From NCBI GenBank assembly GCA_946482295.1, contig CAMLRB010000067.1, positions 1-16,152 of the forward strand: 16,152 nt of DNA. The letters are read 5' to 3'. A model generated the notes under the pieces. That model saw only the letters and a list, made by a program, of their open reading frames with translations. It searched no databases and was not told the origin of the DNA. This DNA comes from an uncultured Bacteriovorax sp. Lineage in GTDB: Bacteria > Bdellovibrionota > Bacteriovoracia > Bacteriovoracales > Bacteriovoracaceae. A program made the position numbers and the translations under genes. Positions 10,175 to 12,645 of the stretch are shown here, one piece after another (the stretch's first letter is position 1; the number at the start of each line of letters is the position of its first letter).

Positions 10175-10528
10175 TTAATTTGTAGCGATTCGCCAGACAG
10201 GACCAGGATCAGCACTGTAGCGATTTAAGCATCTTTCGATATCATCCAAGACACCTTCTTGCTCTAAATAGTCTCCCACATCTTCCATAAGCTGATCTTC
10301 ATGACTAGAGAGTACAACTCCACTCAAATAATGGGTGAACTGTTCATTGTTCAAAGTGCTTACGATAATGACGTTATAAGAAGCGAGGTTGCCCTTCCTG
10401 ATTTCCGCCATTGTTTGATTGGGAAGTCGATTGAATTTATCTCCCATTAACTGAGAGAGGTCGCTGACGTTCTCTTTTTCGAGTTCAATGTGGAAATGGA
10501 TGTTTTTATAGTCGGTTTCAAATTTCAT
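10175..10528 (-). CDS. Hypothetical cytoplasmic protein
   Basis: A 117-residue acidic soluble protein with no signal peptide or membrane segment. The pattern is alternating beta (NIHFHIEL, YNVIIVSTL) and helix (DQLMEDVGDYLEQEGVLDDIERCLNRY). I recognise no family or catalytic motif. The ATG at 10528 has no clear Shine-Dalgarno; an AATAAT lies six bases upstream, but no matching -35 is seen. It is divergent from the histone-fold operon with only 51 bases between starts, so the two could share regulation. The gene ends four bases after the terminator of the lipoprotein gene, which is probably used from both sides. Confidence 0.65.
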   Translation of the reverse strand: MKFETDYKNIHFHIELEKENVSDLSQLMGDKFNRLPNQTMAEIRKGNLASYNVIIVSTLNNEQFTHYLSGVVLSSHEDQLMEDVGDYLEQEGVLDDIERCLNRYSADPGPVWRIATN

Positions 10529-10579
10529 GATAAAATTATTGTGATCTATATTTGCTCAAAAGTCTAAGGGGAGAAAAGA

Positions 10580-11044
10580 GTGCAAGAACCCACATACTGG
10601 CGTAAATGCGGAAGTTGTAAAAAAGAAATTGGTTTCAATTCGGTTTATCAGGCCTGTAATGTCAGTACCTGTCGTAAACTTGTTTTTTGCTCAGTTGATT
10701 GCTGGAATTTACACAACCCAGTCATGAATCATAAAAGTTCTTGGGCCGAAGAAAATCGTTCTCCTAAGAAAGAAAACTATCGCCCTGAAGGAGACGAAAA
10801 CGCTCCTCGCCGAATTATTGTTCAACCTTCCAGAGCAAGTGAAGCAACGGGATCAGCGAATGAGGAGGAAATTCTCATCGTCGCTTCGAAACTCAAGCAA
10901 TACATTAAAGATAAACACGATATGAATACAAGTGCGAACGTCATGGAAATCCTTTCAAAAATCGTTCGTCGTCATACAGACGATGCTGCCGCTAAAGCAA
11001 GAAGTGAAGGAAGAAAAACTGTGATGGATCGCGATTATGAATGA
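10580..11044 (+). CDS. Zinc-finger / histone-fold fusion protein
   Basis: A 154-residue protein of two parts. Residues 10-51 hold eight potential ligands: C10-x2-C13, C26-x4-C31, C37-x3-C41, H45 and H51. The CSVDCWNLH run resembles HIT/MYND/ZZ-type cross-brace fingers binding two zinc ions. Residues 52-95 are polar and likely disordered. Residues 96-154 form a histone fold: helix 1 (ILIVASKLKQYIKDKHD), loop MNTSAN, long helix 2 (about 119-143), then GRKT (144-147). R145 and D152 have the seven-residue spacing of the archaeal Arg-Asp clamp. Helix 3 is cut to a few residues, as in bacterial histones such as Bdellovibrio Bd0055. The GTG start has AAGGGGAG upstream, and a TATATT at 10547 may be the -10. 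The stop overlaps rarD. DNA binding is inferred. Confidence 0.88.
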   Translation: MQEPTYWRKCGSCKKEIGFNSVYQACNVSTCRKLVFCSVDCWNLHNPVMNHKSSWAEENRSPKKENYRPEGDENAPRRIIVQPSRASEATGSANEEEILIVASKLKQYIKDKHDMNTSANVMEILSKIVRRHTDDAAAKARSEGRKTVMDRDYE

Positions 11045-11957
11045 AGTTCCCTCCTTTAAAGTAGGATTAGCTTGGGGACTGCTCGCATTTCTCACTTGGG
11101 GAATCGTTCCCATTTATTGGAAACTTCTTCATGGCATTTCTTTTGTTGAAGTTCTTGGTCATCGAATTTTATGGTCAGCTGTAATTTTAGGATCAGTTCT
11201 TCTCTTTCAAAAAGACATTCGTGGTTTTTCAGGAATCGTATCTCAGAAAAAAAACATTTTGTATTTGATTCCGACAACATTACTCATTCTTTTCAATTGG
11301 AATCTTTTTATTTGGGGAGTTGATAATAACTACATTGTCGAATGCTCTATGGGCTATTTCATCAATCCTTTGCTCAATGTTTTTCTTGGTGTTTTCTTGC
11401 TAAAAGAAAAATTGAAACCCATTCAGTGGATCGCTATTTCATTCGCTTTCATTGGCATTCTCATCATGCTGCTCTCTCGTGTTGGACGCCCGGAAATTTC
11501 AATTGGTCTCGCTTTGAGTTTTGCGCTGTATGGGTTGTTGAAGAAAAAAATGAACGTGAAGCCAATGCACTCACTTTTTTTTGAAACTATTTCTCTTATT
11601 TTACCCGTACTTATTTATTTCGGTTACCTCATAAACACTCACAATTTTTCCTTTTTTAATGAAGGTCCAGTGGATCGACTCCTTATGATTGGTGGGGGAG
11701 TTGTGACGGTCGTTCCACTTCTTGCTTTCGGCCATGCTGTTCGTCATCTTTCTCTGACGACAGTAGGTATAATGCAATACATGACTCCCACAATGCAGCT
11801 CATGTCGGGAGTTTTCCTTTATGGAGAAGCATTCACTAAAAATCACGCCTGGTCATTTGGTTTTATTTGGTGTGGACTTCTTATTTACACTCTTCACGGT
11901 TTGATGGAACATCGAAAGAAATCATGGGAGAAAAATGAAGCTTCATCATCCACTTGA
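11037..11957 (+). CDS. rarD: RarD-type EamA/DMT transporter
   Basis: A 306-residue inner-membrane protein with about ten hydrophobic helices arranged as two EamA repeats. Characteristic RarD features are the N-terminal TWGIVPIYWKLL, GHRILWS, NWNLFIWGVDN, GYFINPLLNVFLG, ALYGLLKK at the repeat junction, and MQYMTPTMQL near the C terminus. Family members are drug/metabolite exporters; RarD was named for a chloramphenicol-sensitivity phenotype and its physiological substrate is unclear. The start overlaps the histone-fold gene by 8 bases and the end overlaps the next gene by 23 bases, so all three are surely co-transcribed. Confidence 0.93.
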   Translation: MNEVPSFKVGLAWGLLAFLTWGIVPIYWKLLHGISFVEVLGHRILWSAVILGSVLLFQKDIRGFSGIVSQKKNILYLIPTTLLILFNWNLFIWGVDNNYIVECSMGYFINPLLNVFLGVFLLKEKLKPIQWIAISFAFIGILIMLLSRVGRPEISIGLALSFALYGLLKKKMNVKPMHSLFFETISLILPVLIYFGYLINTHNFSFFNEGPVDRLLMIGGGVVTVVPLLAFGHAVRHLSLTTVGIMQYMTPTMQLMSGVFLYGEAFTKNHAWSFGFIWCGLLIYTLHGLMEHRKKSWEKNEASSST

Positions 11958-12645
11958 GTTTAGACATTCACTGGAAGTGCGCCTATGCGATGGTACATTT
12001 GCTGATGTCTTAACTTTAAAAAATCTTTCGGAGCTGGATCAACTTGAGCTACTCGTTGCTCTTGGAGACTTGTTTCCTTTCATGCCCGATACTCAACATG
12101 TAACTTCTGGATTTCATCCTGACATTAACAAAGTGGAAATAACAAATGCAGTGACTTTCTTTGGTGGTAGCTTTCATCCCTTTCATCGCGGTCATCTCAA
12201 TTGTCTGGAGAGTTGCCCGGAAAAAAACATTATCGTGATCCCGGATTGCAATCCTCATAAAGTGCGTTTTGAAGAACGCTCTCCCTATGAAACTTTCACT
12301 GAACTTTGTTCTATCTTAAAAGGAAAACCATTCAGTATTTATCCTGGATTTCTAGGGAAGAACGTGGCCAATCCAACTGCGAGCTGGATTACACGTGTGA
12401 AAATACCTGAAGTTAATTTTTTGATGGGGGACGACTCCTTCATGAATTTTTTCAAGTGGACTCGTCCAGAAGACATTCTCCTTAAACTCACAAAACTTTA
12501 TTTAGTACCTCGCGATTTTGAACGATCTGATTATGAAGAACAACTTTCTAAAATTCGCACAATAGCGCCTCGTCTGCAGATCATTATTTTACCTGATCAT
12601 CCGTTTCGTCAGTTGTCGTCGACAAGCTTTCGCTCACTTAAATAG
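11935..12645 (+). CDS. NadD-like nucleotidyltransferase, atypical
   Basis: A 236-residue protein with the cytidylyltransferase-like fold of nicotinate-mononucleotide adenylyltransferases. FFGGSFHPFHRGH (about 75-87) is the GxFxPxHxGH nucleotide-binding motif, the middle has a MGDDSF..F..W block as in NadD (GxDsf..l..W), and SSTSFRS near the end matches ISSTxIR. NadD adenylates nicotinate mononucleotide in NAD synthesis. Two oddities stand out: about 70 residues precede the first motif, which normally lies at the N terminus, and the protein stops only two residues after SSTSFRS, whereas NadD usually continues for about 25 residues. It may therefore be a divergent NadD or a relative with another substrate. 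Its start lies inside rarD. Confidence 0.75.
   Translation: MKLHHPLEFRHSLEVRLCDGTFADVLTLKNLSELDQLELLVALGDLFPFMPDTQHVTSGFHPDINKVEITNAVTFFGGSFHPFHRGHLNCLESCPEKNIIVIPDCNPHKVRFEERSPYETFTELCSILKGKPFSIYPGFLGKNVANPTASWITRVKIPEVNFLMGDDSFMNFFKWTRPEDILLKLTKLYLVPRDFERSDYEEQLSKIRTIAPRLQIIILPDHPFRQLSSTSFRSLK

Follow-up and report, generated by a model that had tools for sequence, protein, structure and literature searches.

The window examined here is a 16,152-nucleotide stretch of DNA from an uncultured Bacteriovorax sp. (Bdellovibrionota; contig CAMLRB010000067.1 of assembly GCA_946482295.1), which encodes, at positions 10580..11044 of the plus strand, a protein of 154 amino acids (aa) joining a two-site zinc finger to a histone fold. 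Judged by its sequence, the protein is almost certainly a member of the described ZZ histone class, and its architecture is as such already known (Schwab et al., 2024; PMC11390915, as far as the accessible text goes). What is new is that the finger also exists as a separate small protein with a gene of its own, which never accompanies the fused form in the 137 finger-bearing genomes of the kin phylum defined below. The gene and its surroundings comprise the following features:

10175..10528, minus strand: divergent 117-aa open reading frame (ORF) of unknown family, cluster c3, a conserved neighbour by neighbourhood comparison
10566..10573, plus strand: ribosome-binding-site-like AAGGGGAG, 6 bases 5' of the GTG start, read from the sequence
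10580..11044, plus strand: zinc-finger histone gene of the ZZ histone class, 154 aa, from the ORF, its homologues and the published class
10595..10768, plus strand: two-site finger domain with a conserved AxxE..SP end, residues 6-63, from invariant ligands and their spacing
10769..10861, plus strand: variable linker, residues 64-94, with 19% mean pairwise identity
10805..10822, plus strand: PRRIIV motif inside the linker, residues 76-81, from the sequence and a similar motif in seven fingerless histones
10862..11038, plus strand: alpha3-type histone fold with an RKT...D motif, residues 95-153, from its match to the histone HBb (Bd0055)
11037..11957, plus strand: rarD-like EamA transporter gene, its start overlapping the histone stop by 8 bases, from sequence matches
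11935..12645, plus strand: NadD-like nucleotidyltransferase gene, cluster c1, scoring below the NCBIfam cut-offs, a 3' neighbour of fused and fingerless histone genes

The ORF opens with GTG and closes with a TGA lying inside the 8-base overlap with the ATG of the downstream gene; its coordinates and strand are those given by the first-pass annotation. The end of the finger, at residue 63, was placed where stand-alone fingers of 66-79 aa stop. The protein as a whole has no significant match in Pfam, and the NCBIfam archaeal histone model reaches it only at E 0.01, under its cut-off, which fits with many relatives being annotated as 'hypothetical protein' and a few as 'histone H3/H4'.

The finger as a separate protein

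The kin-phylum sample consists of 290 genomes drawn evenly from a larger group, namely the phylum of G001, the genome of the Bacteriovoracaceae locus L003. A finger profile matches 137 of them, with a single match in 136; G046 has one more, a piece of 28 residues where a contig ends. For many genomes scoring was limited to the 20 best first-look candidates, a depth at which a divergent second copy could escape. When these 137 genomes are sorted with a histone profile (E 1e-4), joining places within 800 bases of each other, 110 prove to have the fused gene and 27 a separate finger gene, and no genome has both. By the same profile and threshold, 21 of the 27 have one histone match elsewhere in the genome and six (G007, G016, G024, G046, G069 and G077) have none. 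PF00808 at E 0.1 likewise finds nothing in those six, a weak test that misses the fused gene in 3 of 9 kin genomes. All six fall within one nine-member finger lineage (support 100/99), whose other three members (G032, G039 and G056) have one distant histone match each, at E about 1e-10.

Separate fingers come in short forms, which end soon after an SP/AP motif that also closes the finger of the fused protein, and in longer forms with an extra tail. A profile of twelve mostly stand-alone fingers retrieves 4797 database proteins, and 61 of the best 120 lack a histone, a share that gives no estimate of the true ratio given the bias of this profile to stand-alone forms. These 61 comprise 33 proteins of 66-79 aa and 28 of 97-138 aa, and an I-L-R-R-like motif closes 23 of the 28 longer ones. 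Fingers with the long tail are encoded at L082-L090, L098, L121, L122, L124, L134 and L135 and are found among database proteins such as P0143; their I-L-R-R-like ending recalls a reversed PRRIIV of the fused linkers. Nine of the short fingers (L123, L127-L133 and L140, each of 70-odd residues) lie directly 5' of a membrane-pyrophosphatase-like gene, with a galE-like gene on the other side in seven and the remaining two stretches ending before that side; both gene names are our reading of the sequences. Six of the nine genomes with this gene order are ones in which no histone was detected.

Beyond the kin phylum, the finger is found by one profile in 31 of 112 genomes of Myxococcota (the phylum of G005), by another profile in 43 of 140 genomes of a second, overlapping draw, and in 3 of 148 genomes of UBP10 (the phylum of G405), the finger places in both phyla being mostly unsorted into fused and separate. 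Among 14 stretches from the Myxococcota phylum, nine encode finger and histone in one frame, four a finger that lacks a histone (the stretch of L144, among these, extends to the contig end) and one the two parts in two reading frames of one strand. The last, L145 (G363:C327, of a Myxococcota-titled phylum), represents either a frameshift or an overlapping gene pair. The exclusion of fused and free forms is not strict in this phylum: G339 and G378 have two finger matches each, and G378 combines a fused gene (L148) with a divergent separate finger (L149). The more divergent fingers of these two genomes, L149 in G378 and L150 in G339, follow the same pattern but read C-x-V-A-S-C-N, and one of them ends a long open frame; each genome also has a second, closer finger match. 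These two sequences suggest a finger family extending beyond the reach of the present profiles.

We found no published report of stand-alone fingers or split genes in a literature search that lay mostly outside subscription journals, preprints and supplements, and neither stand-alone fingers nor separate finger genes were found in the portions consulted of the paper that describes the ZZ histones (PMC11390915).

Repeated joining and parting of finger and histone

Fused and fingerless histone genes occupy shared neighbourhoods. Counting loci fetched twice only once, and excluding the 18 of 120 histone loci in which ORF tiling missed the core gene, 17 fused genes (including that of the window) and seven fingerless ones (L101-L104 and L107-L109) lie beside c1, the NadD-like gene of the window, or c3. 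Seven distinct fused loci and one fingerless locus (L110) lie beside c6/c9, and one fused gene (L066) and eight fingerless ones beside c8/c13. Other arrangements place a c6 member near the fused L011 and a c8 member near the fused L016. In seven of the 27 separate-finger loci the finger is unmarked, and the counts there rest on neighbours alone. In the window, the rarD-like gene (11037-11957) separates the histone gene from c1, which in most kin directly follows the histone. No conserved neighbour across the 120 histone and 27 finger loci indicates a pathway, and we accordingly dropped any assignment of function from neighbouring genes.

The trees tell of the same kind of traffic. The finger tree (110 rows) implies seven changes between fused and separate states (7-8 over bootstrap replicates, two of them forced by well-supported branches), and the histone tree (101 rows) nine changes between fused and fingerless states (8-9 over replicates, four forced); both rest on about 60 columns, which makes any one branch weak and allows the changes to be read in either direction. 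In the histone tree, the fingerless L110 stands beside the fused L047 with support 100/92. Switches between the fused and the separate or fingerless states have thus been repeated. Two genomes, G063 and G067, carry a fingerless gene of the c8/c13 kind together with a fused gene elsewhere, and fission within the c8/c13 neighbourhood is therefore not proven, as the fused L066 may be a fresh fusion.

Class membership and phyletic spread

The published ZZ histones combine an N-terminal finger with C4 and C2H2 sites and a C-terminal histone resembling the bacterial dimers; they occur in B. bacteriovorus among others, where expression and abundance are low, and their likeness to eukaryotic ZZ domains rests on predicted structure (Schwab et al., 2024; PMC11390915, here as below to the extent of the text consulted). 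The window protein shares with them (D0LYE7 of Haliangium and the B. bacteriovorus protein) both ligand sets, the dimer-like histone and the RKT motif, and ligand positions 10, 13, 26 and 31 of their published profile are numerically the same. This class bears out an early surmise that the architecture has relatives. The window protein and its clade differ from it in a loop before the fifth ligand that is four residues shorter, and, whereas the sixth ligand is given in PMC11390915 as C53/C43, at two positions past the fifth, a C-x-C at this place occurs in 0 of the 121 fingers compared here.

A longer, less conserved second histone, Bd3044, has been reported from 37% of Bdellovibrionota genomes (Hocher et al., 2023; PMC10627809, consulted in part); by our inference, Bd3044 and the ZZ histone of B. 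bacteriovorus are one and the same. The fusion, which the first-pass annotation had proposed to seek across the Bdellovibrionota, is present in 110 of the 290 kin-phylum genomes (38%), in line with that figure. According to the part of a review that we consulted, deletion is lethal for Bd0055 and likewise for Bd3044 (PMC11318664); in the corresponding part of the primary paper, bd0055 is the sole gene whose attempted deletion is described. In the literature searched, to the extent of the texts accessible, we found no tested function of the ZZ class.

A protein search returned 706 homologues at E 1e-3 or better, and the best 120 listed all have both finger and histone. A one-genome-per-species scan found 333 encoding stretches, the best 80 of which belong by record title to Bdellovibrionota (59), Myxococcota (12), Pseudomonadota (5) or no named phylum (4). 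A role in mobile elements or defence was considered and rejected: none of 17 pattern stretches in viral contigs was confirmed, PADLOC gave no match, and a search of phage and plasmid records with one stand-alone finger as the query found no copy.

Conservation and fold class of the finger

The translation has C10, C13, C26, C31, C37, C41, H45 and H51, the eight ligands first read from the letters of the window, exactly where they were placed. In an alignment of 73 sequences (the window, 63 of the 80 best loci of the scan and nine listed homologues, down to 40% identity), these eight are invariant together with P62, L99, S103, L125, R145, K146, T147 and D152, a degree of conservation of finger and histone residues that, on this alignment, is far beyond chance. 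The spacing C-x2-C-x12-C-x4-C-x(5 or 9)-C-x3-C-x3-H-x5-H holds in 117 of 121 fingers (113 distinct, some loci having been fetched twice), the exceptions being L019 and L025 (x2 for x4), L113 (the fifth Cys replaced by Asp) and L079 (masked letters). In L113 (G284) the fused protein is otherwise intact. Besides the ligands, conserved features of the finger are W7, V28-S29, A56xE58 and P62. Nonsynonymous divergence (dN) between the window and eight relatives is 0.014-0.098 for the finger and 0.11-0.21 for the histone part; synonymous divergence (dS) is 1.4-2.8 in three of the same 16 comparisons and not computable in the other 13. We rejected the broader proposition that the finger is more conserved than the histone part: it holds by dN in the window's clade, but not family-wide, where mean pairwise identity is 58% for the finger, 60% for the histone and 19% for the linker (64-94).

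The finger had been read as closer to the MYND/HIT fingers than to a plain zinc ribbon. C-S-x2-C-x3-H is the core of the MYND and HIT fingers, whereas ZZ has C-x2-C there. The window protein shares with MYND/HIT the spacing of ligands 5-7 (FCSVDCWNLH), and C-x3-C-x3-H recurs in 117 of the 121 fingers. The last ligand of the MYND/HIT motif is Cys; that of the window protein is His, and the spacing of its first pairs is also different. While the CSxxCxxxH spacing stands and resembles MYND/HIT more than it does the ZZ pattern, no Pfam finger model reaches its cut-off: zf-MYND scores 10.7 bits against the whole window protein and 12.7 bits against the finger alone, far below its threshold of 22.7, and at E up to 1 eight of 40 fingers match zf-MYND, one zf-HIT (best E 0.18) and 12 zf-FLZ. 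More generally, searches of the finger against Pfam, NCBIfam and solved structures found no good model, with best E-values of 0.0011 (40 fingers), 0.0016 (12 fingers) and 0.073, and no ZZ model was among the Pfam families shown for the finger alignments (25 of 27 shown in one set, all 15 in the second). Against PDB sequences, the finger profile retrieves a weak row for ZMYM5 and rows for cytochrome c3, the latter presumably matched through CxxCH by chance. A single structure model of the protein has a mean predicted local distance difference test score of 50.2, below 50 in the finger, too poor to place its fold. On the sequence comparisons, the fold may be either ZZ-like or MYND/HIT-like.

The histone part and the linker

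The histone part is of the HBb kind, as the first-pass annotation had held for this finger-histone fusion. A single-sequence search of solved structures retrieves the two deposited HBb sequences at E 5e-10 (8cmp) and 7e-10, with all others weaker, among them the HLp histone of Leptospira at E 3e-4. An unrelated helical family had been envisaged as the alternative for residues 95-154; the profile of the histone part, which itself contains one HBb-like row, matches HBb at E 1e-24. HBb (Bd0055; PDB 8cmp, 8fvx, 8fw7, 9ezz and 9f0e) shares with the window protein the histone fold over 57 ungapped residues, the RKT...RD motif and most named DNA contacts, but is an abundant single-domain protein with neither finger nor linker. 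G144-R145-K146-T147 and the R145/D152 pair lie at the positions first assigned to them. The DNA-contact residues of HBb named in the consulted part of PMC11317129, an incomplete list of seven, are T8, S9, K10, N22, S24, T53 and R57; by ungapped alignment six of them are identical in the window (S103, K104, N116, S118, T147 and R151), and T8 corresponds to A102. The face-to-face histones, such as HLp of Leptospira (9qt0), share the alpha3 histone fold but have no finger, and the Arg and Asn said to keep their tetramer together (R48 and N52 of the published profile) seem, by simple offset rather than joint alignment, to have A138 and S142 in their place.

The linker motif has counterparts in certain fingerless genes: RRILV, KRIIV or KRILV precedes the fold in all seven fingerless histones of the c1/c3 neighbourhood, and a PRRIIV-type motif occurs in 52 of 94 fused linkers and in 0 of 13 other fingerless histones. 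We also considered an internal translation start in the linker. In eight fused genes of one Bdellovibrionota lineage (L041, L042, L045, L047, L053, L056, L058 and L060), an ATG preceded by a purine-rich stretch lies 9-10 codons 5' of the histone core, and that of the fused L047 recurs almost unchanged in L110, which has no finger. Across the fused genes, some fetched twice, a ribosome-binding-site-like 5-mer accompanies 5 of 62 ATGs in the linker, 7 of 87 in the finger and 4 of 231 in the histone part. An internal start is not supported: such ATGs are no commoner in the linker than in the finger, and in the window the 30 codons that precede the core include no start codon. A separate case is the fused gene of L038 (near 2100), whose histone part is interrupted by an in-frame stop and whose linker contains an AAGGAG-ATG; this is either a draft-genome error or a decaying gene.

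Tandem histone doublets, in which a single open frame of 129-160 aa matches the histone profile twice at a distance of about 200 bases, were observed in nine genomes (G096:C126, G125:C6, G134:C14, G143:C7, G161:C6, G195:C32, G259:C121, G275:C50 and G287:C127), all of which also carry the fused zinc-finger histone.

A proposed docking finger anchored on DNA, and its alternatives

We propose that the C-terminal histone fold forms an HBb-like dimer that would grip the DNA backbone without sequence preference and bend the DNA, while the N-terminal finger would bind two zinc ions and dock onto a conserved partner in the cell, more probably a protein than a nucleic acid. The dimer would present two such fingers on DNA. 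Fusion would keep the job of the finger beside DNA, and in lineages with separate genes the same job would be done by a small free protein. We give this reading as a whole, a DNA-anchored histone dimer with a docking finger, a probability of about 0.5. Inferred in this reading are the binding of zinc, the dimer, the bending of DNA, and the docking of the finger together with its partner. HBb-like dimerisation and backbone binding are predicted because six of the seven named contact residues are identical and the fold is homologous. A docking surface is indicated by conservation beyond the ligands, by the slow change of the finger in the window's clade and by its survival where no histone was found; for docking to a conserved partner these features suggest even odds. 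The finger is probably a separately evolving unit with a job of its own rather than a mere appendage. We put the chances at about one in two that it represents an undescribed, free-standing two-zinc family of Bdellovibrionota and Myxococcota, almost always single-copy in the genomes that have it and with a histone-independent role, which has been repeatedly joined to and split from a histone and would act in trans on or beside chromatin when split. A histone gene was possibly missed in the six finger genomes without one, most of which look like drafts; chance gaps are less likely, because the six are related.

The alternative that the finger itself binds nucleic acid, giving the dimer a second DNA or RNA contact for site preference or bridging, is unlikely, if less so than the other rivals. 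Basic residues of the window's finger (R8, K9, K14, K15, R32 and K33, with K14 nearly invariant), an NRKR at that site in many longer-loop members and the I-L-R-R-like end of 23 of the 28 listed longer stand-alone fingers all speak for such contacts, but the 33 listed short fingers stop soon after SP/AP without any such tail, and most two-zinc fingers of the ZZ, MYND and HIT kinds bind proteins. That the finger reads the tails of the cell's other histones, in the way that histone H3 is read by eukaryotic ZZ domains, we consider improbable: the published structural likeness to those domains (PMC11390915, consulted in part) and the presence of at least one further histone match in 79 of the 110 fused genomes are in its favour, but tail reading is unlikely because the other 31 show no second histone match; the six finger-only genomes have no histone match either, and Schwab et al. 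find the binding pocket not conserved and themselves call tail reading unlikely in the text available to us (PMC11390915). Least probable is a zinc or redox sensor, in which metal loss would alter DNA binding; eight near-invariant Cys/His ligands would suit it and free fingers could buffer zinc, but the conservation past the ligands, at W7, V28-S29, A56xE58 and P62, is not obviously needed by a sensor.

The idea, put forward from the sequence alone, of a targeted chromatin factor rather than a bulk packager is plausible, and is favoured by the low expression and abundance reported for the B. bacteriovorus ZZ histone (PMC11390915, consulted in part). Counting against it, the profile used finds no second histone in those 31 fused-gene genomes, including the nine that score best against the window's family alignment (G001, G044, G172, G175, G189, G208, G239, G247 and G273), and the fused protein may there be the main histone. 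In the window's lineage it could accordingly be the bulk nucleoid histone, with a finger that only stabilises or oligomerises it, a doubtful alternative ranking just behind nucleic-acid binding. The fused gene is the sole histone-profile match in the nine best-scoring genomes, where PF00808 finds no other place, a weak test given that this model recovers the fused gene in six of them and has no match at all in the other three. Against a bulk histone stand the low abundance already cited, the fingerless genes that other lineages have in the same neighbourhood, and a finger that changes more slowly than the histone part in the window's clade, which would be odd for a mere spacer. The frequent occurrence of the finger without a histone, unforeseen in the first-pass annotation, replaces the question of the histone's recruiter with that of the purpose of the finger, here read as a docking module.

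Implications

Bacterial histones are a young field, and surveys based on architecture would divide genes that are related among 'ZZ histones', 'bacterial dimers' and 'hypothetical proteins'. A finger that occurs alone, and in the kin phylum never beside the fused form, makes its function testable, since a free finger can be deleted or used in pull-downs without touching a histone, and in the genomes where the finger is present and no histone was detected its function can be studied against a clean background. If the proposal is true, the fused finger would be a DNA-anchored docking protein, a bacterial counterpart of a detachable histone-associated adaptor.
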